Origin: Gammaproteobacteria bacterium
GTDB lineage: Bacteria; Pseudomonadota; Gammaproteobacteria; Pseudomonadales; Azotimanducaceae
Direction: 5' to 3'
NCBI GenBank assembly: GCA_009837725.1
Contig: VXSY01000141.1
Location: 1 to 32,989, forward strand
Length of the DNA: 32,989 nucleotides
In this document: positions 1,294 through 26,270 of the stretch, in pieces
Layout of the letters: every line of letters starts with the position of its first letter
Numbering within the stretch: the first letter of the stretch is position 1
Translations under genes and position numbers: made by a program
The notes under the pieces: generated by a model
Databases searched by the model: none
Seen by the model: only the letters and a program-made list of their open reading frames with translations
Told to the model about the DNA's origin: nothing

Positions 1294-4200
1294 CTAGGCG
1301 AAACCGTAGAGCTTGGCCACCGCTTGGTCGAGCGCCTCCTCCAAACCTACCACATCCGCATCGGCGGCTGCCGCCAAAGCGTCCAAGATGTCATCAACGA
1401 GCTTCACAATACGTTCTTGTTTGTCGGTCGCTACGTCCGGGATTGGCAGGGGTTTCCAGTCGTCGGGAAAGATGTGGAGGTTGCTACGACGGTGTGCCTG
1501 AAGGTAATCCTGAGCGCTCGAAGAATTCATGATGCCCAAGACATACTTCACTAGAAATCTGCGGCTGATCTTCTCCAGTTGGCGCCGGTCAGGCCGAAGA
1601 GTTCCACCTCTCTCGCCCGGATATCGAGCCTGCTTACGGATAGCGCGGTTTCGGACGTCGGCAAGGGCGGGCCAAGGCACAAAGCACCAAACGGAGTGGT
1701 TGTGGTAGGTCTGATTGTGGTCATATGTTACTCTCGGCCGGCTTTCGCTGGCCGACATGTCGACCGATAGGACCTTCTCGGGAACCTCATACATCTCCGA
1801 GAATGTGGGCCGGCTGAAAAACGTGGGTGCCCTTTCCGTGCCCCACTCTAGCCATTCATTTTGCGTCAATGTCCAACGGGACAGGTGTTTCCCTTGCACG
1901 AATCTCCGTGGATGCACTTTGTCGCGGCTTGTCGAGACCAAATCCTTGAGCTTGAAGCTCGTTTCGCTTTTGGTCTCATGTGCATGAACGGCCATGCCCT
2001 TCGAGATGTAGAAGATAGACGAAAGCTCAACGGTTGGCACGTTGGAGCGGCGATACTCGCCCGACTCCGGGAAAAAGCATCGTTCATCCAGTGCATTTTG
2101 CGGGGCACTCGGAAGCTCTTTAACCTGCCCGAAGCTCCCCTCATGCGCTCGTCGAAGGGGCGTGTTTTCAGCACCTGCCCCTCGCCGAACGACATAGGAA
2201 ACATTATGTACGGCGGCATCGAAGATCTTGATCTTGCCGTAGAAGTCAATTCTTTCTACAACCGCATTTCGGAGATACCAATCACGAGCCTTTAGTGCGT
2301 ATTTTGCATGACAGAAGGCATCCGAGACGATGAGGCTACTAACGCCGTTCTCCCGTAACAGTTGGAGGCTACGCTCCATAAAAGCGAGAAAGAGATCCCA
2401 CTTCTCCCAAAGTGTCTCATACGCACCGCTTTCAGCAACCAGTTGCCTAGACTCCTGATGCTTGGGGTGTCGAAAGTCCGCACGAACGTACGGCGGGTTA
2501 CCAATAGTAACGTCGAAGCCCTGCCGGATGTCAAACATGTAGCGCGGGTCGAACCACCCAACCGTTGCGTTCTGGTCGTAGGGGTCCCACTCCGAAACGC
2601 GTTCGGCATCCTCAGAAGCCAAACCACCGCGCTTAAGCTCATGCGTCAGGTCGTTGCGGATTCGGGTATCCGCATCCATTGCATCCAGCTTTTGCTGGCG
2701 GGTACGAGCGTGGAAGTAGCGTTCCCGGTTCGCTTGCAGTTCTCGCTGTAGGGCGTTCGAGGCGGATGTTCCAAGTCGCAGCTCGCCGGAAAGTGGAAGC
2801 AGGGTGTTCGCCGCAACGAAGCGAGTCTCCAGGTTGGGAAGGGGCTTGATTCCTAGGTTGTCCTCCGAGACTGCGACCCGCTGCTCGATCGCAAGCGAAA
2901 TGAAGAACCGGAGCTTGGCGATTTGGCAAGCGACCGGTTGAATGTCGACACCGAAGATGCTGTTCTGGATCAGGAAGAGCTTGCGACCGAAGTCAGAGCC
3001 CCTATAGCGCTCGAACGTGGCGCTGATTTCCGTGAGCTCCGCGTCCCGGGCCCCTTGGTCGTGGGTGTCGAAGGCTGCTGCCGCCCGTTCCTGCGCAAGT
3101 TCCTTCTGCAGCCGTTCCCACCTCTCGTTGGCAGGATCAAGCCGGCGGAGCGCGAGCGTGAGTTTGTGCAGGATACCCATTGGAAAGGCACCGGACCCGC
3201 AAGCGGGATCAAGCACCTTCAAGTCAGCGATCGCACGGATCACTCCGTCGGTTTCGGACTCTTCGAAGAGGTCGCTTGCGTCACCGAAGGCATCCTCGTA
3301 ATCGAGCAGGTAGTGGAGCCGGTCGCGCCAGAAGGCTTGGTCTCCATCAGCCGGTTGTGCCTTGAGGGCAAGGCTTGCCACCAAGGCTTCGTCCGCCATG
3401 TAGTCCACCACCGGTCGCGGTGTGTAGTAGGAGCCGGTCTGCTTGCGAGCGGTTTCTCTAGTCTCTGGGTTGTACGCGGCCAACAGGTTCTCGAACACTC
3501 GACCGAGGAGTTCGGGGTCGAGAGCCACTTCCACTTCCGCTGGCGTGTTCTCCTCCACCGTGAACTTGTAGCGGTTGAACAGCGTGATGAGCCCCTCCTC
3601 GTCGTCGAAAAAGAGTCGGTTTGGAATCGATACGATGCCGTACTCTTTGGCCCGCTTTTCTGTCACGTTGTCCGAAAAGCAGTCGATGCGATAGCCCCCT
3701 TGGGAAAGGGATTCCACGCTGTCCAGACAATCGAACAGGCCGCCATTGATGAAGGGTGTGCGTGCGAAGAGCTCAAGCAGGGCATCGGGGTCCTCGATCT
3801 CCTTACGGTAGCGGTATCGGTCGAAGAGGCGGTGCGTCGATTGGCGTCGCTGACTCCAGCCACGCAGGTCAACCTCGCAGTTGAGCGTTGCGAAGAATAG
3901 GTTTTGCAGGATGGCGCGGTAGTACGAGTCACCCTCCGCCCTGTCGTAGCCCTTGAGCAGTTGGCCGACCTGTTCCTCGATGAACAGGTCGTCGGCAATC
4001 AGCTTCTTCTCCTTGATGAACCAGACGAACAACAGGCGGGTGATCAGCCGAATGACATGTTCTTCCGACGAAAGCGTGCGACGTTGCCCCGTGGGGAACG
4101 TTGCCTCCTCGACGGCGCGATTGAACCACCCGAAAAGGTCGCGATAGAACCGCTTGTTGAGTTCCTGGGTATCCAGGGTGTCAAGGAGGGCCGCCAGCAA

Positions 4201-4875
4201 ACCGTCAAAGTTGGTCGGCTTGGCATGGGTGTCCATCCAGGCGAGACGGCTCGGCAGGGAAAGTTCAGCCAAGATGTCCTGATGAGCCCGGTGGGGCTTG
4301 GAGGGGTCGATCTCGCGGATGAGCGCGACATTGCCTAGTACCTGGCGCCTGCCGTCTCTCTTGTGCTTGCGCCGGTGCACGAAGGCGAGCGTGAGCGAGC
4401 CACCCTCGGCACGGAAGAGCACGAATGCTGGCATGGCGAACCGCTTGTTTATCTCCCTCGCGAAACCGGCGTAGTCAGTGCGCGAGTAGCTCGTTCCGCT
4501 GAGTTCAATAGCAAGGAAGACGAAGCTCTTCTGCAGACCATCTTTGAAACCAGTTTCAGCGAGCAAGGAGCCTTGGTGCTGGTCCCTGATTTCCTCGTCG
4601 GACACTTGGAACACGATGTGCGCCGACGTCGCGCTGGCGCGGAACGCCTCCTCAGATTGCGTCTGCGTAGAACGTGCGTTGTCCTTAGGCGGTAGTTGTG
4701 CCAGGAAGTCATCGACATCGCCGGTTTGGTTCGCCAAGGTTAGTTCACTCGCATAGCCCAAGCAGCGTAGCAGCGACTCTGCGGCTTCGGCGAACGGGCG
4801 TTCCACTCCGGCCTTAAGCGCCTCTCGGATGGTGGCTGTCGTGTCGTCTGCCCGATGCGTCGCGTTGGCTCGCAT
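1294..4875 (-). CDS. Eco57I-type adenine-specific DNA methyltransferase, large (1193 aa)
   Basis: Probable N6-adenine DNA methyltransferase of a restriction/defence system. SAM-binding motif I (LDPACGSGAFPMG) is near residues 553-565 and the catalytic NPPY motif (IGNPPYV) near 792-797; the order I then IV is that of the gamma/Eco57I class. The roughly 550-residue N-terminal region precedes the methylase core, and the last 350 residues probably hold target recognition. No PD-(D/E)XK nuclease motif could be assigned, so it may modify only. The start ATG lies 6 bases after the stop of the PLD-SNF2 helicase gene, whose last codons supply an aaaggg ribosome-binding site, so the two are an operon. 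Sequence appears intact. PglX of BREX is similar in size, but no other BREX gene is present here. Confidence 0.85.
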   Translation of the reverse strand: MRANATHRADDTTATIREALKAGVERPFAEAAESLLRCLGYASELTLANQTGDVDDFLAQLPPKDNARSTQTQSEEAFRASATSAHIVFQVSDEEIRDQHQGSLLAETGFKDGLQKSFVFLAIELSGTSYSRTDYAGFAREINKRFAMPAFVLFRAEGGSLTLAFVHRRKHKRDGRRQVLGNVALIREIDPSKPHRAHQDILAELSLPSRLAWMDTHAKPTNFDGLLAALLDTLDTQELNKRFYRDLFGWFNRAVEEATFPTGQRRTLSSEEHVIRLITRLLFVWFIKEKKLIADDLFIEEQVGQLLKGYDRAEGDSYYRAILQNLFFATLNCEVDLRGWSQRRQSTHRLFDRYRYRKEIEDPDALLELFARTPFINGGLFDCLDSVESLSQGGYRIDCFSDNVTEKRAKEYGIVSIPNRLFFDDEEGLITLFNRYKFTVEENTPAEVEVALDPELLGRVFENLLAAYNPETRETARKQTGSYYTPRPVVDYMADEALVASLALKAQPADGDQAFWRDRLHYLLDYEDAFGDASDLFEESETDGVIRAIADLKVLDPACGSGAFPMGILHKLTLALRRLDPANERWERLQKELAQERAAAAFDTHDQGARDAELTEISATFERYRGSDFGRKLFLIQNSIFGVDIQPVACQIAKLRFFISLAIEQRVAVSEDNLGIKPLPNLETRFVAANTLLPLSGELRLGTSASNALQRELQANRERYFHARTRQQKLDAMDADTRIRNDLTHELKRGGLASEDAERVSEWDPYDQNATVGWFDPRYMFDIRQGFDVTIGNPPYVRADFRHPKHQESRQLVAESGAYETLWEKWDLFLAFMERSLQLLRENGVSSLIVSDAFCHAKYALKARDWYLRNAVVERIDFYGKIKIFDAAVHNVSYVVRRGAGAENTPLRRAHEGSFGQVKELPSAPQNALDERCFFPESGEYRRSNVPTVELSSIFYISKGMAVHAHETKSETSFKLKDLVSTSRDKVHPRRFVQGKHLSRWTLTQNEWLEWGTERAPTFFSRPTFSEMYEVPEKVLSVDMSASESRPRVTYDHNQTYHNHSVWCFVPWPALADVRNRAIRKQARYPGERGGTLRPDRRQLEKISRRFLVKYVLGIMNSSSAQDYLQAHRRSNLHIFPDDWKPLPIPDVATDKQERIVKLVDDILDALAAAADADVVGLEEALDQAVAKLYGFA

Positions 4876-4881
4876 CTGGTA

Positions 4882-7800
4882 CTACCCTTTTGCTGCGAGG
4901 ATCGCGAGCCAAGTCACCAACTCGTACTCCGAGTCGTCCTGGGTGGGCTGGTCGCTAGCCTTCGGAAGCCGGCCGTCAGGCTTGGCGAGCTGCGCCACGG
5001 CCTGCCTGCCGAAGGTTCGGGCGATGCTCTGCAGCCCAGCTTGGATCAAGGTGTCGTAATGGTCCATGTCTGAGCCTTGCTTGGTCCGTTGATCGAAGAG
5101 GTCGCATAGGTCGTTGTGCGCCGCCTCGATGCCTGCCGCGAGATCTCGCAATAGACTCAACGATCGCTTCGCGGACGTGAAACCGAGGCGGACGTCGCCG
5201 TCGTCCCTGACGTAGATCAGGTAGTGCTTGCCGAGCGGGTTGACCCACGCCGAATCGTCGCCGTCGCGGCGGCTTGTCGTGGCGTCATCTCCCGACCCGG
5301 TGTGGCGCAGGCAGAAAATGGCGCCGGGCTGCGCCATGGAGTTGCTCGAAACGGGCGGCACCACCGCGTACAGGCCCAGGTCGGCCGCTTCAAGTTCCTC
5401 CCGGCGAGATTCAAGAAAGCGCAGCAGGTCGATGCGGAACTCGTCCAGCGAAAAGTCCGCCAAGCTGATGGTGTCATCGAGGTCGTCCAGATCAACCACT
5501 TGGTCCTTGAGCCGAACCAGTTGCCGGTCGCGGAACTGCAGCTCTTGCTGAATCTGTTCCGTGGCTTGCGCATCCTCCAGCAGGTTGTCGCCGCCAGTTG
5601 CGGTTACGTCAACCAGCGCCATGCGCGCCTCGACCCGGTTTTGCACATTCAAGTACCGATCCAGATCCTTGACAGGCCAGAAGTTCACCAACCGAACGGC
5701 ACGGCTGTGCGAACTGATGCGGTCGATGCGCCCAAAGCGCTGGATGATTCGCACGGGGTTCCAGTGGATGTCGTAGTTGATGAGCAGGTCGCAGTCTTGC
5801 AGGTTCTGGCCTTCGGAGATGCAGTCGGTGGCGATGAGAACATCGATTTCCTTGGAGGGCTCCGCGCCCGCACGATCTGCTCGGTGCTTCGAGATTGGGC
5901 TAAAGTTGGTGAGAATGTCGTCGAACCCCGTCCGACCGAAGGATGTCTTGTTGCGGCCGTCGCCGCGAACCAAGGCGATCTCTGAACCTGCCGCCCTGGC
6001 CTTGCCCTGCAGGTTTTCGTACAGGTAGTCCGCCGTGTCCGCAAACGCCGTAAAGACGAGAGTCTTGCGGTTTCTACGGTTTTCCTTCGTCTTCGTCGGT
6101 TCTTCAAGTTTGGAGGCGATGCGACTCCAAAGATCCGAGAGCTTAGCGTCTCGCTTCGGCGACACGGCCTCAGCCTCCGCAAGTAACGCCTTGAGCGCGA
6201 CCCCATCCGTGTCGAGCAGCTCACGCCATTTGGGGACATCGATGTGGCCGAGATGGAAGCGGCGCTTGCCGCCGATGGCGAAATCGCCGTCGTCATCTTC
6301 CGGATCGTCCATGTCGTCCAAGGCGACCTCGTTGTACTCAACCTCGGGGTTCGCTTGCTGGTGCTCTGCAAAGGCATCCATCCGTTCCAGCAGATGGTCG
6401 ATTTTGGCCAATGTGCGGGTGAGCGTCAGGCGAAACGACTCGACCGAACTCTCAAGCCGCTTCAAGAGATTGACCTTCATCATGCCGATGAGGATGCGTT
6501 CGCGCCCCGCTTGCGTGAACCCGTTCACCACCTCCTTCTCGTACTCGGCCTTGACCTCATCGGCAAGGTCTTTGCGCAAATAGCCGGCAGGGTTGTACAA
6601 GGCCAGCGAGAGTCGGTTGATGCGTTCGTCGAGCCTCTCGAAGGAGAAATCACCGTTCTTTAGGTCCATGGCGGGATAGACGGCTTCCGGCTTTGCTCGT
6701 TTCGGGAAGCCGCCGAGCCTTTCCATCTCCTTCGCGTAATGTCGCCGGATGTGGGTCCGTGAGCGGGCGATGCTCAAGCCATCCAAGAGCCTGAAGAAGT
6801 CGCCCCCGATGTCCTCGAGCAAAGTCGCCACCTTGCGTTTGCTCGCCGGTGACTTCGACCAAGCATCGAACTTCCGCTGGGCCGCGTGAATCGTCTGCTG
6901 AACCGAGGAGAGGCCAAGCGGTACCTTGAATGCGGCATCGGCCGCAGACTCCAGGGTGACATCGCCCCCGCCGATGAAGGAAATCTGATTCCGCAGGTCA
7001 CGAAGGTCGTTGTTGACAGGCGTTGCCGACAGAAGCAGCACCTTGGTCTTGATGCCGTGCTTGACGATGTCCTCGATCAGCCTTTGGTAGCGGGACTTCC
7101 TGGCGGGTTCGCCTTCTACTTGGCGCGCTCGGTTGTTGTTCCGAAAATTGTGGGACTCGTCGATCACCACGAGGTCGTAATTGCCCCAGTTGATCGTGGC
7201 GAGGTCAATGTCCCCGGTCATGCCCCCATCGCGGGAGAGGTCTGTGTGGGATAGGACGTCGTAACGAAATCGGTCCTCCAAGAACGGGTTGAGCTTGCTG
7301 TTGTTGCCGTAGATCGTCCAGTTGAAACGCAGCTTCTTGGGGCAGAGCACCAGCACCCGTTCGTTCTTGAGCTCGAAGTACTTGATCACGGCCAATGCCG
7401 TGTAGGTTTTGCCAAGGCCCACGCTGTCGGCCAGGATGCAACCGTTGAGGGCTCGCATCTTGGCGATGATCGCTCTAGCACCGTCCCTTTGGAACTCGTA
7501 AAGCGTCCGCCAAATGTGGGTTTCCGGCAAAGCCATACCACTGACTTCAGCATCGGTGTCTTTCTGCCCGTCCAGCAGGTCGCGGAAAAGATGGAACAAC
7601 GTGAGGTAGTAGATGAACTCCGGCGGCTGGTTGGCGTAGAGGCTCGCAAGCTGATCGAGCACATCTTGCTTCACGTCTTCCGTGCGCTCGTCGTCTCGCC
7701 ACCATTCGTCGAACCACGCCAAGAGGTCTTCTCGGTCGCGGGAACTGTCAACCACGAGGTTCAGTTCTACGTTCGGATTCACGCCCAGCCCCAATCCGGG

Positions 7801-8355
7801 CACCGTAAAGTTCGAACTACCGAGCAACGCGTGGTCCTCGTCTCGGCGCAGGTGGTAGAGCTTGCCGTGGACGAAGCCACCCTTGACGGAGCGAATCTCG
7901 GCCTTGCCCTCTATCCATGCGGCACACTGACGAGCCAACGCGCTTTGTGCGAGCTGATTCGCCAGCGTCAGGCCTTGCTCTGTGAGCCGAAACGCTTTCG
8001 ATTCCAGATCGTCCCGCCGCATCCTACCCACCAACTCGGGGGCCCCGTAGAGGAAGCGCATTCCTTCGATCTGCTCAAGTTCGTCCCGCAATGCGCCGTA
8101 GGCGCTGATGGTGAAGTACCCGGACACGACGGAGAGGCGGGTGTGCGGGTACAGGTGGGACTTGAGGAAACTGCCGGCCGTGCCGCGCTCCCGATTGTCG
8201 CGAATGCCGGACCGAAGTTGCGGTGCGGCAGTTGTGGGCGCAACCGGAGCGGATTGGCCGGTTCGCTTCCGGTTACGGGCTCGTTTGTTGGCGGAGGATG
8301 GCTTTGGCATACGGCGAATGCGAACGTCGGCCTTGAAGAACGACGTGCGAATCAT
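4882..8355 (-). CDS. PLD-family nuclease fused to SNF2 helicase/translocase (1157 aa)
   Basis: Likely restriction/translocation partner of the adjacent methyltransferase. After a basic N-terminal tail there is a phospholipase-D-like domain at about residues 60-215, with an HxK motif (HGKLYHLRRDEDHALLGSSNF, H163/K165) typical of PLD nucleases. The SNF2 ATPase follows: Walker A in LADSVGLGKT (308-317), DESH Walker B (399-402), and the C-terminal helicase lobe with TDCISEGQNLQ and RIIQRFGRIDRI near residues 830-880. PLD plus SNF2 in one chain beside an Eco57I methylase recurs in DNA-modification-based defence loci, so nuclease-coupled translocation on foreign DNA is the inference. An internal ATG at codon 16 (MPKPSS) is an alternative start. 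It is divergent from hemH with a 105-base gap. Confidence 0.85.
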   Translation of the reverse strand: MIRTSFFKADVRIRRMPKPSSANKRARNRKRTGQSAPVAPTTAAPQLRSGIRDNRERGTAGSFLKSHLYPHTRLSVVSGYFTISAYGALRDELEQIEGMRFLYGAPELVGRMRRDDLESKAFRLTEQGLTLANQLAQSALARQCAAWIEGKAEIRSVKGGFVHGKLYHLRRDEDHALLGSSNFTVPGLGLGVNPNVELNLVVDSSRDREDLLAWFDEWWRDDERTEDVKQDVLDQLASLYANQPPEFIYYLTLFHLFRDLLDGQKDTDAEVSGMALPETHIWRTLYEFQRDGARAIIAKMRALNGCILADSVGLGKTYTALAVIKYFELKNERVLVLCPKKLRFNWTIYGNNSKLNPFLEDRFRYDVLSHTDLSRDGGMTGDIDLATINWGNYDLVVIDESHNFRNNNRARQVEGEPARKSRYQRLIEDIVKHGIKTKVLLLSATPVNNDLRDLRNQISFIGGGDVTLESAADAAFKVPLGLSSVQQTIHAAQRKFDAWSKSPASKRKVATLLEDIGGDFFRLLDGLSIARSRTHIRRHYAKEMERLGGFPKRAKPEAVYPAMDLKNGDFSFERLDERINRLSLALYNPAGYLRKDLADEVKAEYEKEVVNGFTQAGRERILIGMMKVNLLKRLESSVESFRLTLTRTLAKIDHLLERMDAFAEHQQANPEVEYNEVALDDMDDPEDDDGDFAIGGKRRFHLGHIDVPKWRELLDTDGVALKALLAEAEAVSPKRDAKLSDLWSRIASKLEEPTKTKENRRNRKTLVFTAFADTADYLYENLQGKARAAGSEIALVRGDGRNKTSFGRTGFDDILTNFSPISKHRADRAGAEPSKEIDVLIATDCISEGQNLQDCDLLINYDIHWNPVRIIQRFGRIDRISSHSRAVRLVNFWPVKDLDRYLNVQNRVEARMALVDVTATGGDNLLEDAQATEQIQQELQFRDRQLVRLKDQVVDLDDLDDTISLADFSLDEFRIDLLRFLESRREELEAADLGLYAVVPPVSSNSMAQPGAIFCLRHTGSGDDATTSRRDGDDSAWVNPLGKHYLIYVRDDGDVRLGFTSAKRSLSLLRDLAAGIEAAHNDLCDLFDQRTKQGSDMDHYDTLIQAGLQSIARTFGRQAVAQLAKPDGRLPKASDQPTQDDSEYELVTWLAILAAKG

Positions 8356-13471: not shown

Positions 13472-14746
13472 TCAAGGCAAGAACCAGAGCGACAGCGCCG
13501 GTATGTAGGTGATGGCCAGAAGCGCGATTAGCAGCACCAGCATGAACGGCCAGCAGGCGGCATAGAGTTCGAGCACCGGTCGGTCAAAGCGGTAGCTGGC
13601 GATGAACAGGTTCATGCCCACGGGCGGCGTGAAGTAGCCGATCTGAAGGTTCGCGAGGAAGATGATGCCGAGGTGGATCGGGTGGATGCCGTAGCCCGCC
13701 GCCACCGGCAGGAGCAGCGGCACCATGATGACGATGGCGGCAAAGACATCGAGCAGCGCGCCAAGCGCCAGCAGCAGGATGTTGAGCAGGATCAGGAAGG
13801 CAAGCGCGCTTGAGACGTGCTCCTGCATGAACGCGAACAGGCGCTGTGGCACCTCGGCATCCACCAGATAGTTGGTGAACGCCAGCGCTGCGCCGAGGAT
13901 GAGGATGATGCTGCCCACCATCACCATGGATTCCCGCATCACCCCCGGCAGCGCCTTCAGCTTCACTTCCCGATAGAGCCCCACCTCGACGACGAGCACA
14001 TAGAGCGCCGTCATGGCGGCCGCCTCGGAGATCGCGAAATAGCCCGAATAGATGCCGCCGAGCACGACAAACGGCAGCGGCAGCTCCCAGCGGGCCGCCA
14101 CCAGTGCAGCGCGGACGTCCTTGAGATCGAACCTCGTGCGTGGCGCATCGCCGTGCTGCCACCAGGCCCAGGCCGACAGCAGCAGCACCATCAGCGCCGC
14201 CGGCACGAGACCCCCCAGGAAGAGCTGGCCGATGGTGAACGGTTCGCCCACGTCGAGTTGCTGGGCGACGATGCCGTAGAGCAACAGCGGCGCAGACGGC
14301 ACGATCAAGAGGCCCAGACTGCCGGAGGTGGTGACGAGGCCAAGGCTGAAGCGCTCCTCGTATCCCCCCGCCTTCAGCATCGGCAAGAGCAGCGCGCCCA
14401 GGGCCACGATGGTCACGCCAGACGCGCCCGTCAGAGCCGTGAAGAGCGCACAGGCAACGAAGCCGACAATCGCAAGCCCGGCCGGCATCCAGCCGAACAG
14501 CGACCGCACGAGGCCCATCAGCCGCTCCGACGTGTTCGCCGACGCCATGACGTAGCCGGCGAAGGTGAAGAACGGCAGCGCCACCAGAAGCGGCGTGTCG
14601 GAGATGCGGTAGAGCTCGATGGCCACCACCGCAAGGTCGATGTCCGAGGCGAGAAAGCCGAGCATGGCTGCCGCGAGAACGATGGCAAACAACGGCGCAC
14701 CAAGGAGCGCCATGAACGCGACGAGGGCAATGCCGGCCCAGATCAC
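13472..14746 (-). CDS. dctM: TRAP transporter large permease, DctM
   Basis: Main membrane subunit of a tripartite ATP-independent periplasmic transporter, which drives solute uptake with a sodium or proton gradient. It has 424 residues and about 12 hydrophobic spans, and belongs to the ion-transporter superfamily. Typical features are PLLVALPFFTFAGYVMASA, the conserved GASGVTIVALGALLLP segment and the late IGYFTPPVGMNLFIA motif. The GTG start at 14746 follows a ggggagg ribosome-binding site. Unlike the rest of the operon it does not overlap its neighbour: 250 bases containing palindromic repeats separate it from dctQ, although it is still on the same strand. The substrate is unknown and is set mainly by DctP. 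Confidence 0.92.
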   Translation of the reverse strand: MIWAGIALVAFMALLGAPLFAIVLAAAMLGFLASDIDLAVVAIELYRISDTPLLVALPFFTFAGYVMASANTSERLMGLVRSLFGWMPAGLAIVGFVACALFTALTGASGVTIVALGALLLPMLKAGGYEERFSLGLVTTSGSLGLLIVPSAPLLLYGIVAQQLDVGEPFTIGQLFLGGLVPAALMVLLLSAWAWWQHGDAPRTRFDLKDVRAALVAARWELPLPFVVLGGIYSGYFAISEAAAMTALYVLVVEVGLYREVKLKALPGVMRESMVMVGSIILILGAALAFTNYLVDAEVPQRLFAFMQEHVSSALAFLILLNILLLALGALLDVFAAIVIMVPLLLPVAAGYGIHPIHLGIIFLANLQIGYFTPPVGMNLFIASYRFDRPVLELYAACWPFMLVLLIALLAITYIPALSLWFLP

Positions 14747-14996: not shown

Positions 14997-15488
14997 TCAC
15001 GCTCCATCCTCCGCGTCGGTTCGCGCCTCACCCCCAGTCACCGCACGAACAACGTAGCGCAACGCCATCACCCCGGCCGCCACCGGGATGATGAGCTCGC
15101 ACACCCAGGCCGGCACCGCGCCGAAGCCGATGGTGTCGTCGAGATAGTCCCAATGGATGAAGCGCACCGAGTACCAGCCGAGTAGGCCGCAGACGAGGGC
15201 CGTGAAGGCCGAGGTGATGCGGCTCGCAACGCCGTTCATCCGCTCACTGGCAAAGCGCGAGACGATGTCGATGCGGATGTGGCTATCGGTCGCAGCGGCC
15301 GATGCCGCGCCGATCATGGTCACCCAGAGCACGCTCACGCGCACCAGTTCGTCGCCCCAGACGATGCCGGTGCCGAAGAGATTGCGCGCCAGCACTTGAT
15401 AAACGGCGACGCCAATCATCACCAAGAGGAGGGCGACCAATAGCGCCGTTTCCACGGTGTGAACGGCACGCCTCAAGCGGTCGTTCAC
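14997..15488 (-). CDS. dctQ: TRAP transporter small permease, DctQ
   Basis: Small membrane subunit of the TRAP transporter, 163 residues with four hydrophobic spans at about residues 13-35, 46-62, 87-107 and 128-150. The family pattern is visible in VYQVLARNLFGTGIVWGDELVRVSVLWVTMIGAASA, with the conserved W.DEL.R segment, and in SHIRIDIVSRF. The start is GTG at 15488, set by a GTGA overlap with the dctP stop, so translation is coupled. It pairs with DctM to form the membrane complex that takes substrate from DctP. Confidence 0.9.
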   Translation of the reverse strand: MNDRLRRAVHTVETALLVALLLVMIGVAVYQVLARNLFGTGIVWGDELVRVSVLWVTMIGAASAAATDSHIRIDIVSRFASERMNGVASRITSAFTALVCGLLGWYSVRFIHWDYLDDTIGFGAVPAWVCELIIPVAAGVMALRYVVRAVTGGEARTDAEDGA

Positions 15489-16657
15489 CGACGGCTGGCA
15501 CGCCCTATCCGGCGCGCCGGGGCACCGGACCGACCTCGTGCCACGGAAGAGCTTGCATCGGGCGCGGTGACAGTTGCTGCCGTGCCCCGCGCTGCCGCAA
15601 GTGCAGCCACCAGTTGCCGATACAGGCCGTCCGATATGATGCCCTCACGCACCCAGCGCACCTCCGCCTGCTTGCCGAGCCGACGCCAGTTGGCCAGCTC
15701 ATCCGGCGCGGGGGTTTCGAGCTTCAACCCCTGCGAAATCAACACTTGCATGGTGGCATCGTGGTCGCCGCGATTGCGCCGGTCAGCCTCCGCCACGGCG
15801 TTGCCCAGGATGCGCCGAACCGCAGCCGCGTCAGCATCGGACAAGCGGCGAAAGCGTCGTTCCGACACCGCCAGCAGGCCATAGACATACATGAGCGGGA
15901 TGTCGAGCACATAGTCGAGCTGGGTGTGCCATTGCAGGGCCACCGCTGCCACCGGCGGCGACGCCACCGTGTCGATAAGGCCCGTCTGGAGCCCCGGAAG
16001 CACGTCCACCACCGTGAGGGGGATGGGCGCGATGCCGAAAGTGTCGAGCGCCCGCGCCACGGAAATGTCGCCCTCTGGCGACCACACCTTGGCCCGGCGC
16101 ATGGCTTGCAGAGTGGCGGCGGGGCGCCGGCTCATTGCATAGGCCATGCCCACCTCGGCGATGCCGAAGGCGACGAAGCCGTTTCGTTCCATGCCGGCGA
16201 GCAGCACCCGGTCTAACTGTGCACGCACCGCGTCCACTTCCGACAGGTCACGAAAGATGAGCGGGAGGTTGTAGAGCTGGACGTCCGAATAGATGCGGTT
16301 GAAAACCGTGGTGGTCACCACGCCGCCGTGCAACTGGCCAGCGCGAATCTTGCGCAGCACGGCCCAGTCGTCGCCCATCGCGCCGCCGGGATAGAACCGA
16401 AACGACACCCGCCCTTCCGTGGCTGCATCCACTTCCTCGGCCGCCGCGCGCAGGATGTTCATCCACGTGGAGCCGGCCGGCGAAAGGGTGGCGATCTTGA
16501 AGGTGGTTGCACCCGTCGGGAAGGCGAGCAAGAGACAGGTAAACGCGACGCCGAAGATCGACCTGCGGGAGGTTCGAGACCCGGTGCGGGATTTCCCCAC
16601 GAGCGGTGGCTCCATTGCCGGCGAACTCACGGTTCGCATCCTAGAAAAAGTGCTCAT
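15485..16657 (-). CDS. dctP: TRAP transporter substrate-binding protein, DctP
   Basis: Periplasmic solute receptor of a TRAP transporter. After an N-terminal export signal (basic RTSRR then IFGVAFTCLLLAFPTGA) the mature part begins TTFKIATLSPAGSTWMNIL, the usual first strand of the family. The central VWSPEGDISVARALDTFGIAPIPLTVVDVLPGLQTGLIDTV region matches the DctP ligand-binding hinge. The TatT-associated DctP subgroup may differ in ligand from the classical C4-dicarboxylate receptors. The start is uncertain: ATG at 16657 overlaps tatT by 17 bases, ATG at 16639 lies just after its stop, and a further Met at 16615 would give a more normal signal peptide. The C-terminus is unusually Arg/Ala-rich. 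Confidence 0.88.
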   Translation of the reverse strand: MSTFSRMRTVSSPAMEPPLVGKSRTGSRTSRRSIFGVAFTCLLLAFPTGATTFKIATLSPAGSTWMNILRAAAEEVDAATEGRVSFRFYPGGAMGDDWAVLRKIRAGQLHGGVVTTTVFNRIYSDVQLYNLPLIFRDLSEVDAVRAQLDRVLLAGMERNGFVAFGIAEVGMAYAMSRRPAATLQAMRRAKVWSPEGDISVARALDTFGIAPIPLTVVDVLPGLQTGLIDTVASPPVAAVALQWHTQLDYVLDIPLMYVYGLLAVSERRFRRLSDADAAAVRRILGNAVAEADRRNRGDHDATMQVLISQGLKLETPAPDELANWRRLGKQAEVRWVREGIISDGLYRQLVAALAAARGTAATVTAPDASSSVARGRSGAPARRIGRASRR

Positions 16658-17513
16658 CCGCCGAGTCGAGCAACGCCCGTGCCTGCTCCTGGGCGACGCG
16701 GTTCGACAGGGTTAGCCCCGGGGCGCGGGGGTTGGCCGCCAACACGTCGCGCAGGGTTTGGTCATGCAGTTCGCGGTCGAACACCAGGCGAGCGTACTGG
16801 GATGCAAACATCACGCGCGCCATGAGGTGGCGGCCTTCGGAAACCGCGATGGCGCGTTCAAAATGCTCGCGCCCGACTTCGGGACGGCCACCCAATGCCG
16901 GCGGCGCAAGCGTCTCGAAGACGCCGAGATACATGTGCGGGCCGCCGTGTTCCCAGCTTCCGTCAAGCTCGGCGACGCGCGCCATGAGCGCTTTCACCCG
17001 CCCCAGCTCCGCCACCGCATTCCAGTCCTCGCTGTGTGCCTGAATCCAGCCGGCCCAGGACGTCGCAAAGGTGTAGACGACCGGCACATGCTCCTCTCGC
17101 AACGTCGGCAGTCGCTCTTCGTATTCGGCGAAGGGCATGGTGCGCGCCCCGCAAGTCCACGGCACCTCCGCACAAGCGGCGCGGCTAGCCAGCCGCAGCG
17201 CCTTGTCCGCGAAAGTGCGCGCCTGTTCGGGGTCGTCGGCGAAGGCCGCACCGTAGGCGGCATTGAGGTTGGCGGCGGCCTGCAGCAGCGCCGGACTGTC
17301 GGCGTTCGAGCGCAGGAGCGCATCGAGCATGATGAGATAGGCCGGCGCTCCGTTGCGCACCACCTCGAGATCGTCGTTGTCGAGCATCGCGGCGGTAAGG
17401 TCGCTCGCGAGCGATTCCGTCATTCCCGTGACGACATTGGTGCAGCCCGCGAGCACAAGGCCGCAGCAACTCGCCAGGGCGAGCCGAAGGACGGCAACGG
17501 ATGCGCGGCTCAC
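16641..17513 (-). CDS. TRAP transporter-associated lipoprotein, TatT family
   Basis: Likely outer-membrane-anchored lipoprotein of the TatT (TRAP-associated T-component) family. The signal peptide ends in a lipobox, LVLAGC with Cys24, and the rest is helical, as expected for the TPR-like TatT fold that forms a ring with DctP in the Treponema Tp0956 work. Recognisable parts are AAMLDNDDLEVVRNGAPAYL near residue 40 and a C-terminal LTLSNRVAQEQARALL. Length of 290 residues is usual. The start is GTG at 17513, overlapping the TGA of the upstream redoxin as GTGA. Its position between the redoxin and dctP places it firmly in the transporter operon. Confidence 0.85.
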   Translation of the reverse strand: MSRASVAVLRLALASCCGLVLAGCTNVVTGMTESLASDLTAAMLDNDDLEVVRNGAPAYLIMLDALLRSNADSPALLQAAANLNAAYGAAFADDPEQARTFADKALRLASRAACAEVPWTCGARTMPFAEYEERLPTLREEHVPVVYTFATSWAGWIQAHSEDWNAVAELGRVKALMARVAELDGSWEHGGPHMYLGVFETLAPPALGGRPEVGREHFERAIAVSEGRHLMARVMFASQYARLVFDRELHDQTLRDVLAANPRAPGLTLSNRVAQEQARALLDSADEHFF

Positions 17514-18121
17514 GACTCGCCCTGCTCCCCCTGGGCTGTGCCCACAACCGCCGTCACGGCGCCGAGCAGTTCTTCGAACGGCGGCCGGTCGCGATAGCCC
17601 GGCAGCGCGCGCTTGAGACGGATGATCCCCTCGGCGTCAATGAGGAAGATGCCGGGATGGGCAACGCCATAGGCGCCGTGGCCTTCGCCATACTCCTCGT
17701 TGCGGATGCCGAGAGCGTTGACGTGTGCCGCCCCTTGATCCGACAGCACGGGATAGCCGACGCCGTGCTTTTCCTGAAAGGCGGCGAGCTTGTCCACGCC
17801 GTCATAGGTCATCGCCGCAACTTGCACACCCACCGCCTCGAAGCGTTCCTGCCACTCAGTCAACTCGACCAGTTGACGAATGCAGAAGGGTCACCAGTCG
17901 GCGCTGCGGTTGACGAAGAGGAGAAGGCCCTTCGCGCCCGTGAGGTCGGCCAAGGCACGCGGAGCGCCGGTGTGGTCCGGGGCATCGATGGCCGGCATCG
18001 CGCTGCCTACCGCCGGCCCCCAGTCGTCCTGATAGTCGGCCGCCACGCCCGCGCCAGCAAGCAACATGAGCGCGAGCGAGACAAGCCGCACAACGTGCGT
18101 CGATCGAAGGAGCAGTTTCAC
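17510..18121 (-). CDS. Selenocysteine-containing redoxin (peroxiredoxin/TlpA-like), UGA at codon 77
   Basis: Probable exported thiol/selenol redox protein of 203 residues. An in-frame TGA at 17891-17893 lies at the first position of the active-site motif, giving SADW-U77-PFC80. The usual cysteine form of this family reads SADWCPFC. The same frame runs on both sides: a signal-peptide-like N-terminus (VKLLLRSTHVVRLVSLALMLLAGAGVAA) and AIDAPDHTG...GLLLFVNRSADW before, then IRQLVELTEWQERFEAVGVQV, YPVLSDQ and HPGIFLIDAEGIIRLK after. The start is GTG at 18121, after cggaggtgaat. A strong hairpin sits where a bacterial SECIS should. The stop overlaps the tatT GTG. The alternative is a nonsense pseudogene, but the exact Cys position, the hairpin and the coupling argue against it. 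Sec synthesis genes are not in this window. Confidence 0.85.
17859..17877 (-). promoter_or_regulatory. Bacterial SECIS-like hairpin
   Basis: In the redoxin mRNA, 13 nt after the UGA, a perfect 7-bp stem (GUCAACU with AGUUGAC) closes a five-base loop GGUCG. The first loop G is the 21st base after UGA. This fits the bacterial SECIS rule of a short stem with a G among the first loop bases about 16-37 nt downstream, and the loop closely matches the GGUCU loop of E. coli fdhF. SelB would bind here. Confidence 0.8.
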
Positions 18122-18220
18122 ATTCACCTCCGCTGAACAAGGCCGAAGTTCCGCCCGCGTCTTGGCGCGCCGGCGTCCATCTGCACTGTACTGCATTTTC
18201 CCGACGCGTCAGTGCCCCCC

Positions 18221-18330
18221 GTAGGGTGGGGCTTGTCCCCGCCCGTCCTGAACGCACCGATGGATTCGGTACAGACCCGTAGGGGCGGGGCTTGTCCCCG
18301 CCCGTCCTGGATGCGTCGAGGAATTCGTCG
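18221..18330 (+). repeat. Tandem pair of ~50-bp palindromic repeats
   Basis: Two direct copies at 18221-18270 and 18279-18330. Each has a gtaggg(g/t)(c/g)ggggcttgtcccc hairpin core followed by gcccgtcctg and a less conserved gaattcg-like tail. The same unit recurs at 13305 and, inverted, at 27855. The short palindromic core and intergenic location suggest a non-autonomous mobile or REP-like family. Confidence 0.75.
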
Positions 18331-25422: not shown

Positions 25423-25833
25423 CTATGCCCCTCGGTAGCCGATGCCCCAAATGCGGAGCAAATCTCGGCAACCAGCGTCGAAATCGCTCCTGAAGTCAAC
25501 CATTTGCATCGCGCCAAGTGTCCAAGACAGGTCGTCGTATGGACAATCTTGGAGGAGAAGGGGGACGATGCGCTGGTCCAAGCGGTACTGACGGAGCGAG
25601 TACAGGAGTTCGCTCTTGACCCATCTGGAACGCACGGCCGCCGGCGACAACACCATCACCACCCAATCGCACCGGCCGAGCGCGGCGCCGATCTCGTCGT
25701 GCCATTGCTGACCGCCCTGGATGTTTATGTCGCTGTACCAGAACGGAACGCCGTGGCGACGCAGCATGGCCACCAAGCGTTCGACAAAGGCCCGGTCCGG
25801 GCTGGCGTGGGAGATGAACGTCTCTCGCGGCAT
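25423..25833 (-). CDS. TIR-domain protein A
   Basis: Stand-alone Toll/interleukin-1 receptor domain of 136 residues. The first strand and BB region read TFISHASPDRAFVERLVAMLRRHGVPFWYSDINI, and the helix carrying the NADase Glu is SRWVKSELLYSL (E75 likely catalytic). No sensor, transmembrane or partner domain is attached. Bacterial TIR domains commonly hydrolyse NAD+ or make cyclic ADP-ribose signals in antiphage defence. It is the second gene of a pair; the other TIR gene ends 26 bases upstream. The 3' end points at the vapC remnant. Effector function is inferred from the family. Confidence 0.85.
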   Translation of the reverse strand: MPRETFISHASPDRAFVERLVAMLRRHGVPFWYSDINIQGGQQWHDEIGAALGRCDWVVMVLSPAAVRSRWVKSELLYSLRQYRLDQRIVPLLLQDCPYDDLSWTLGAMQMVDFRSDFDAGCRDLLRIWGIGYRGA

Positions 25834-25859: not shown

Positions 25860-26270
25860 TCAGGCGGCGCTTCGGATTGCATCCGCAATCGGCTTGACCT
25901 CCGGCAGGCCGCCCTGGCCTTCGTGCAGTTCAATCCACGGCATTCGACGAACGATCCAAGGTATGCCCGTGTCCGGAAGGCGTTTCCGGTCGCCGACGAC
26001 AACCGGAATCAAACGGTTGCTGTAGTTCTTCGCGCCGAGCGCATACTCGATCTCGCGGAGTACCCAACCGGAGTCAATGGCGTCCGGCGTGAGTAGTACG
26101 ACCATCGCTTCGGACTCTTCCAGCGCTCGGGCAACCTCCGCAGCCCAGTTGTCACCGGGAAGCAGGTTGGTGTCGGCATCCCAAGCTTCCAAGCCGTTGA
26201 CCTTCAACGCTTGAGCCACCCGAGCGGCCAGAGCCGCGTCTTGGTGCGCGTGGCTGATGAAGACTTTCAA
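25860..26270 (-). CDS. TIR-domain protein B
   Basis: Second stand-alone TIR domain, also 136 residues: KVFISHAHQDAALAARVAQALKVNGLEAWDADTNLLPGDNW, with the Glu helix at SGWVLREIEYAL (E73 probably catalytic). The two TIR proteins share the fold but differ clearly in sequence, so they are not a recent duplication. This gene is first in the two-gene unit, and the promoter should be upstream of 26270. The pair may form a mixed assembly or act separately. Both lack a visible sensor, so activation would need another protein. Confidence 0.85.
   Translation of the reverse strand: MKVFISHAHQDAALAARVAQALKVNGLEAWDADTNLLPGDNWAAEVARALEESEAMVVLLTPDAIDSGWVLREIEYALGAKNYSNRLIPVVVGDRKRLPDTGIPWIVRRMPWIELHEGQGGLPEVKPIADAIRSAA

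Follow-up and report, generated by a model that had tools for sequence, protein, structure and literature searches.

A predicted selenocysteine-containing redoxin with a covarying SECIS hairpin occurs widely in one gammaproteobacterial family, with partial linkage to TatT-type TRAP transporter genes

Introduction

The window analysed here, the whole stretch of 32,989 nucleotides from contig VXSY01000141.1, carries on its minus strand a redoxin gene in which a TGA codon stands in frame at the active-site motif. Does this codon mark a decayed or wrongly sequenced gene, is it decoded as an ordinary amino acid, or is it read as selenocysteine (Sec)? The last reading had been put forward in a first-pass annotation made from the letters of the window, and it raises the further question of what such a protein does next to the TRAP transporter genes that follow it.

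Going by the accessible parts of the sources, selenoproteins of a comparable kind, called Prx-like, were published no later than 2005 (PMC1088965, PMC2398784, PMC13188914). PMC1088965 described a Prx-like family in which UXXC takes the place of TXXU, and 'Prx-like 1' (pfam00578, UxxC) appears in Table 2 of PMC2398784 with 225 Sec and 2,740 Cys forms. The Prx-like thiol:disulfide oxidoreductase is listed for Geobacter and others (PMC1794560) and is given as PF00578 with UxxC or UxxU (PMC9312934; PMC13188914, Table 1); the published family is graded as a high-confidence prediction rather than a verified one (PMC13188914). In the same body of work, as far as accessible, most of what is described of this kind comes from marine metagenome reads and from a small number of anaerobes (PMC2398784, PMC1794560, PMC1088965).

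Results

Reading frame and stop codon usage

The minus-strand frame from 18121 to 17510 contains one internal TGA, at codon 77, and is otherwise open (Table 1). With TGA read as U, the translation runs VKLLLRST...NRSADW-U-PFCIRQLVEL... and its final codon is again TGA. This bears out the earlier description of a UGA at the first position of SADW-U-PFC in a frame that is continuous on both sides. UGA had also been described as an ordinary stop in the neighbouring genes, and among 24 plausible window genes picked by us, the redoxin included, the terminal codons were TGA, TAG and TAA in 11, 11 and 2 cases, respectively. In the intergenic DNA 5' of the redoxin gene (18200-18300), two copies of a short G+C-rich stretch (about GGGGCTTGTCCCCG) were noted by eye.

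Table 1. Features of the redoxin gene and the adjoining TRAP transporter genes in the window
Feature	Position	Strand	Remarks
Predicted selenoredoxin CDS	17510..18121	-	GTG start, 203 residues with Sec77, terminal TGA; PF00578 AhpC-TSA
In-frame UGA, predicted Sec77 of the UPFC (UxxC) motif	17891..17893	-	TGA in 68 of 71 distinct sites, Cys in 3
Shine-Dalgarno-like GGAGGT	18126..18131	-	4 nt 5' of the GTG start at 18121
Putative signal peptide, about residues 1-28	18038..18121	-	Read by eye; low-confidence N-terminal helix in the model
Predicted SECIS apical hairpin	17859..17877	-	7-bp stem GUCAACU/AGUUGAC, loop GGUCG; fold and covariation of the inner 6 pairs
Predicted SECIS extended stem-loop, window's own sequence	17847..17887	-	Minimum-energy fold; lower stem varies among homologues
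TatT, TRAP T-component lipoprotein	16641..17513	-	PF16811 236.5 bits; GTG start overlaps the redoxin stop (GTGA)
DctP, TRAP substrate-binding protein	15485..16657	-	PF03480 88.3 bits
DctQ, TRAP small membrane subunit	14997..15488	-	PF04290 96.1 bits
DctM, TRAP large membrane subunit	13472..14746	-	PF06808 269.7 bits

Selenocysteine machinery of the genome

The genome from which the window comes (4.66 Mb, 303 contigs, 95.83% complete) was searched for the genes of Sec synthesis and insertion. All four scored above their cut-offs: tRNA-Sec with 67.1 bits (cut-off 47; ARAGORN: SeC, anticodon tca), selA with 515.1 (267.9), selB with 380 (242.25) and selD with 244.9 (125), so that a lack of selB or selC cannot be held against the reading. 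The selA and selB genes adjoin on contig C70, and the tRNA-Sec gene lies about 4.8 kb further on the same contig. The selD match (L058; C108:8187-9107, minus strand) is part of a 749-residue frame whose N-terminal part looks flavoprotein-like by eye and whose SelD part contains CGGC and no Sec; fusions named Ndh-SelD are described in the accessible part of PMC2398784.

Across related genomes, selB scored above cut-off in 153 of 294, and a hand comparison of two tables placed it in 113 of the 127 genomes with a TGA-bearing redoxin match. The 14 TGA-bearing genomes without selB (G006, G031, G033, G043, G079, G082, G087, G091, G115, G136, G146, G155, G162 and G177) are assembled in 50 to 1090 contigs each, five of them with a completeness of 90% or more. 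As selB is general within the window's own family (145/180 genomes), the informative co-occurrence lies outside it, where 8 of 114 genomes have selB. These eight include G182 and G258, the two genomes there with a Sec homologue; of the genomes with a Cys homologue, G222 has selB and the other two (G286 and G282) are without it.

The window's genome contains 12 PF00578 matches. One of them (L121:2053-2430; C271:8552-8929, plus strand) likewise carries an in-frame TGA, at FTGGU, and is predicted to be a second selenoprotein of the genome, with the TxxU motif of Sec-peroxiredoxin.

Homologues and the codon at the Sec site

Homologues of the redoxin were found at E 1e-20 in 135 of the 294 related genomes, namely in 130/180 of the window's own family and in 5/114 from other families of the order. 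The clade is thus widespread in one gammaproteobacterial family; among 369 genomes drawn evenly across the class there was no match at this threshold besides the window's own gene. Reading 75 sites in 74 loci codon by codon gave TGA at 72, TGT at two and TGC at one, with neither TAA nor TAG at any of them. Once four duplicates had been dropped (L054-L057, whose frames are identical to those of L026, L027, L028 and L025), 68 TGA and three Cys codons remained at 71 distinct sites. Within the own family, an in-frame TGA lies inside the match in 125/125 genomes for which the match row was seen, a count that leaves out five genomes with a homologue (G062, G066, G142, G143 and G158). For the 127 TGA-bearing genomes, the position of the TGA was read by codon at the 75 sites; in the remainder, stops were counted inside the match irrespective of their place, and a few rows had further stops.

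The three Cys forms, in which a cysteine aligns with residue 77 as the first-pass annotation had led one to look for, come from G222, G286 and G282 and all belong to other families of the order, as do the Sec homologues of G182 and G258; on the tree, Sec and Cys were exchanged at least twice. Since the class-wide draw added no further Cys homologues, the Sec/Cys contrast rests on three Cys sequences. Broken frames or other stop codons in close relatives would have told against Sec, and the four top-scoring relatives (96%, 90%, 63% and 63% identity) have an intact frame and TGA at the same codon. Residue 77 (U/C) and C80 are invariant across 27 aligned sequences. In four comparisons, dN/dS was 0.11-0.38 before the UGA and 0.10-0.23 after it; purifying selection is seen ahead of the codon as well as past it. 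In G123 (L096 / L115), two Sec redoxins stand in tandem ahead of a TatT-DctPQM cluster, and one of the two has UGSC in place of UPYC.

A conserved hairpin downstream of the UGA

A 7-bp stem with the loop GGUCG, 13 nt past the UGA, is present as originally proposed, and we presume, as was done then, a likeness to the SECIS element of E. coli fdhF. The fold of 60 nt had a free energy of -22.9 kcal/mol (z -2.21), and 6 of 200 shuffled sequences folded equally well. Such a single-sequence fold is mild evidence; the comparative evidence is strong. With positions numbered from the U of the UGA, the conserved stem extends from pair 18-34 to pair 23-29, and the outermost, seventh pair (17-35) is formed in just 24 of 68 homologues. 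All six conserved pairs are formed in 64 of the 68 Sec sequences and five of the six in the other four. In the three Cys homologues three, four and five of the six pairs are formed, and pair 22-30 is disrupted in all three; among the 68 Sec sequences this pair is C-G in 31, U-A in 37 and never mispaired. Pair 18-34 is C-G in 32, U-A in 22, G-C in seven, A-U in four, a wobble in two and broken in one. The apical loop has G25 in 68/68 and U26 in 67/68 sequences (GU at 25-26 in 67/68). A stem-loop immediately downstream of the UGA with a G in a small apical loop is the hallmark of bacterial selenoproteins given in the accessible part of PMC1088965, and the stem-loop found here lies directly 3' of the UGA with a small G-bearing apical loop.

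Pairing and covariation were compared with sequences in which synonymous codons had been shuffled, a procedure that ignores relatedness. Watson-Crick cells amounted to 334 of 340 versus 283 ± 4.7 after shuffling. In a separate count with five measures on 62 distinct rows, paired cells reached 98.9% versus 84.7%, and the covariation score was 0.493 versus 0.192 ± 0.018 for shuffled and at most 0.155 for slid positions; none of 500 shuffles attained either value. Two cruder measures of the five gave no excess, with three pairs changed on both sides versus 2.8 and eight further pair types versus 7.6. On the tree, pair 22-30 must have changed at least 6 times, pair 18-34 at least 13 times and pair 21-31 at least 11 times, which argues that the signal does not stem from one inherited change; this tree was built without the columns concerned, and 23 of its 68 inner branches are open, with the bootstrap unsettled. 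Taken from aligned sequences, the pattern indicates a hairpin maintained by compensatory changes, and it is the strongest evidence for the selenoprotein reading.

These data bear on two other accounts of the codon. That a Cys codon (TGT or TGC) became TGA in one assembly, by gene decay or sequencing error, is hardly conceivable: TGA is one base away from both Cys codons and the assembly is fragmented into its 303 contigs, but TGA recurs at 68 of 71 distinct sites and in other genomes, TAA and TAG are missing there, the frames are open on both sides, selection continues past the UGA and the hairpin covaries. It is also very improbable that the UGA is decoded as something other than Sec, either by reassignment throughout the genome or by leaky read-through with Trp or Cys. 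A read-through product would be under selection whichever residue was inserted, so the dN/dS values suit this account too; the codon, however, terminates 11 of the 24 chosen window genes, the genome has tRNA-Sec together with selA, selB and selD, the three sense homologues carry Cys and not Trp, and a conserved hairpin follows just 3' of the UGA. Pseudogene, sequencing error and genome-wide reassignment were therefore rejected on homologues, hairpin, stop usage and dN/dS. With the Sec machinery, the TGA sites of the homologues and the covarying hairpin in its favour, the proposed selenoprotein has gained support, and the redoxin at 18121..17510 is almost certainly a SelB-dependent selenoprotein in which UGA77 is read as Sec.

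Domain, fold and active site

The protein matched PF00578 with 89.1 bits (cut-off 26) and PF08534 with 61 bits. As none of the 19 NCBIfam matches listed reached its cut-off, automatic annotation may mis-handle genes of this sort, splitting them or labelling them pseudogenes. The predicted structure (pLDDT 89.5, pTM 0.82) places residue 77 directly before a helix formed by residues 78-96, and its best matches in the PDB are BcpB, Bcp4, AhpE and other peroxiredoxins. In this model the fold is that of a BCP/AhpE-type peroxiredoxin whose long helix is headed by a thioredoxin-like UxxC pair. Sequence alignments pair Sec77 with the TPGC Thr of 5enu and with the leading Cys of the WCPHC motif of ResA (3c71); C80 aligns with the following Cys in both. 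The predicted Sec would thus replace the Thr of the peroxiredoxin TxxC motif and C80 would take the place of the peroxidatic Cys; the TxxU motif of Sec-peroxiredoxin is absent from this protein. Because U77 and C80 are its sole Cys or Sec residues, a U77-C80 selenenylsulfide would be the natural oxidized form, and the protein may cycle between this and a selenol/thiol form. The N-terminus resembles a signal peptide by eye, so that the selenoredoxin is probably exported to the periplasm.

Whether such a protein reduces or forms disulfides or destroys peroxides is a separate matter. Among the best 50 fold matches, the first 29 all belong to the peroxiredoxin family and the first thiol-disulfide oxidoreductase, 4nmu, ranks 30th; with C80 at the peroxidatic position, this would fit a true selenoprotein that is chiefly a peroxidase, a peroxiredoxin proper. 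Structure by itself cannot tell the two activities apart, and Sec77 in place of the Thr of TxxC yields UxxC, a thioredoxin-like arrangement (PMC1088965, in its accessible part). We regard the peroxidase as possible though rather unlikely, and a periplasmic thiol-disulfide oxidoreductase as the probable function.

Linkage to TRAP transporter genes

Downstream of the redoxin, genes for TatT, DctP, DctQ and DctM occur together, the same gene set as in TPAT, the TRAP transporter with a Tp0956-type T-component; PMC10942540, in the part accessible, gives both the name TPAT and the T-component family PF16811. L025 and L026, the two closest relatives, share the GTGA overlap of stop and start, and in the other loci the TatT matches begin further downstream of the redoxin. 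Among the 30 loci closest to the window's redoxin, 28 had a TatT match (up to 1.5 kb downstream covered); made up of the top-scoring matches to the window's protein, this set favours its orthologues. Of L061-L100, with about 0.5 kb covered downstream, 11 had TatT and the rest are uninformative at that length. Among 20 larger loci, far members included, six carry the TRAP cluster, in L112 at a distance of about 3.4 kb. In the other 14, among them the three Cys homologues and the two Sec homologues outside the window's family, no TRAP cluster was found with the window's own proteins as queries at E 1e-5, a search that very divergent genes could escape. Ten proteins neighbouring redoxins outside the TRAP cluster, from six loci, had no shared theme.

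Seen from the transporter, TatT is present in 86 of the 369 genomes across the class, and none of the 30 best-scoring TatT loci elsewhere in the class has the redoxin within about 1.5 kb, one of them having a distant redoxin-like match (E 1.5e-8). A TatT-type transporter hence does not need the redoxin, and since TatT is common in the class but lacks the redoxin nearby in these 30 loci, the linkage seems to have arisen within the window's family. It is confined to a subgroup of the clade and not general.

Besides its lipobox Cys, TatT has a CxxxxxxC pair, C114/C121, which is kept in 32/32 family TatT rows covering it (one gene counted twice, as L035 and L113) and occurs in 20 of 29 TatT proteins of other loci. 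This pair is a candidate target of the redoxin, though not restricted to redoxin-bearing loci.

Discussion

In the mechanism that we propose, SelB with Sec-tRNA(Sec) would read UGA77 owing to the downstream SECIS hairpin, whose GU-containing apical loop would be presented at positions 24-28. The overlapping stop and start codons, a matter of position, suggest that selenoredoxin and TatT may be co-translated, and a plausible job of the redoxin would be to keep TatT, or the transporter's cargo, in the correct redox state. A dedicated role with the TRAP transporter nevertheless seems doubtful to us, and equally speculative is the narrower idea that the Sec redoxin is co-made with the transporter and acts on C114/C121 of TatT or on oxidized cargo. 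If it were true, uptake via TatT-type TRAP would be redox-controlled and selenium-dependent, and the linkage offers a first, testable functional lead for the selenoredoxin clade.

By PF00578, fold and UxxC motif the predicted selenoredoxin belongs with the Prx-like thiol:disulfide oxidoreductase selenoproteins, whose representatives were compared by description. It shares with them the PF00578 domain, Sec as the first residue of UxxC and a bacterial-type hairpin just downstream; the window's clade differs in being seemingly exported, widely distributed in one family and partly linked to a TatT-type TRAP transporter. The kind is thus already known, and the exported form, the family-wide spread and the TRAP linkage seem to go beyond it. 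To this kind the present work adds a clade that is large and well supported and whose SECIS is backed by covariation. The redoxin family protein selenoprotein (PF08534; PMC13188914, in its accessible part) likewise has UxxC, but the window's protein scores higher on PF00578, again in a comparison by description. The SelL-related redox protein NF040769 was its second-best NCBIfam match, with 37.5 bits far under the cut-off of 120. With the BCP/PrxQ and AhpE peroxiredoxins it shares the fold (5epf, 3hjp and 1xxu were among the best matches), whereas 5enu has TxxC in place of UxxC.

In a literature search that left subscription journals mostly uncovered, no paper among the matches listed brought together a TRAP transporter, a selenoprotein and a redoxin, and the motif strings RSADWU, ADWUPF and ADWUPY were absent from the texts searched; a Lactobacillus plantarum paper among the matches listed mentions a TRAP transporter and a selenoprotein.

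Elsewhere in the window, two features on the minus strand were noted by eye. Adjacent large methyltransferase-like and helicase-like proteins (1294-8355) resemble a restriction or defence system, and two adjacent small proteins (25423-25833 and 25860-26270) look TIR-domain-like.
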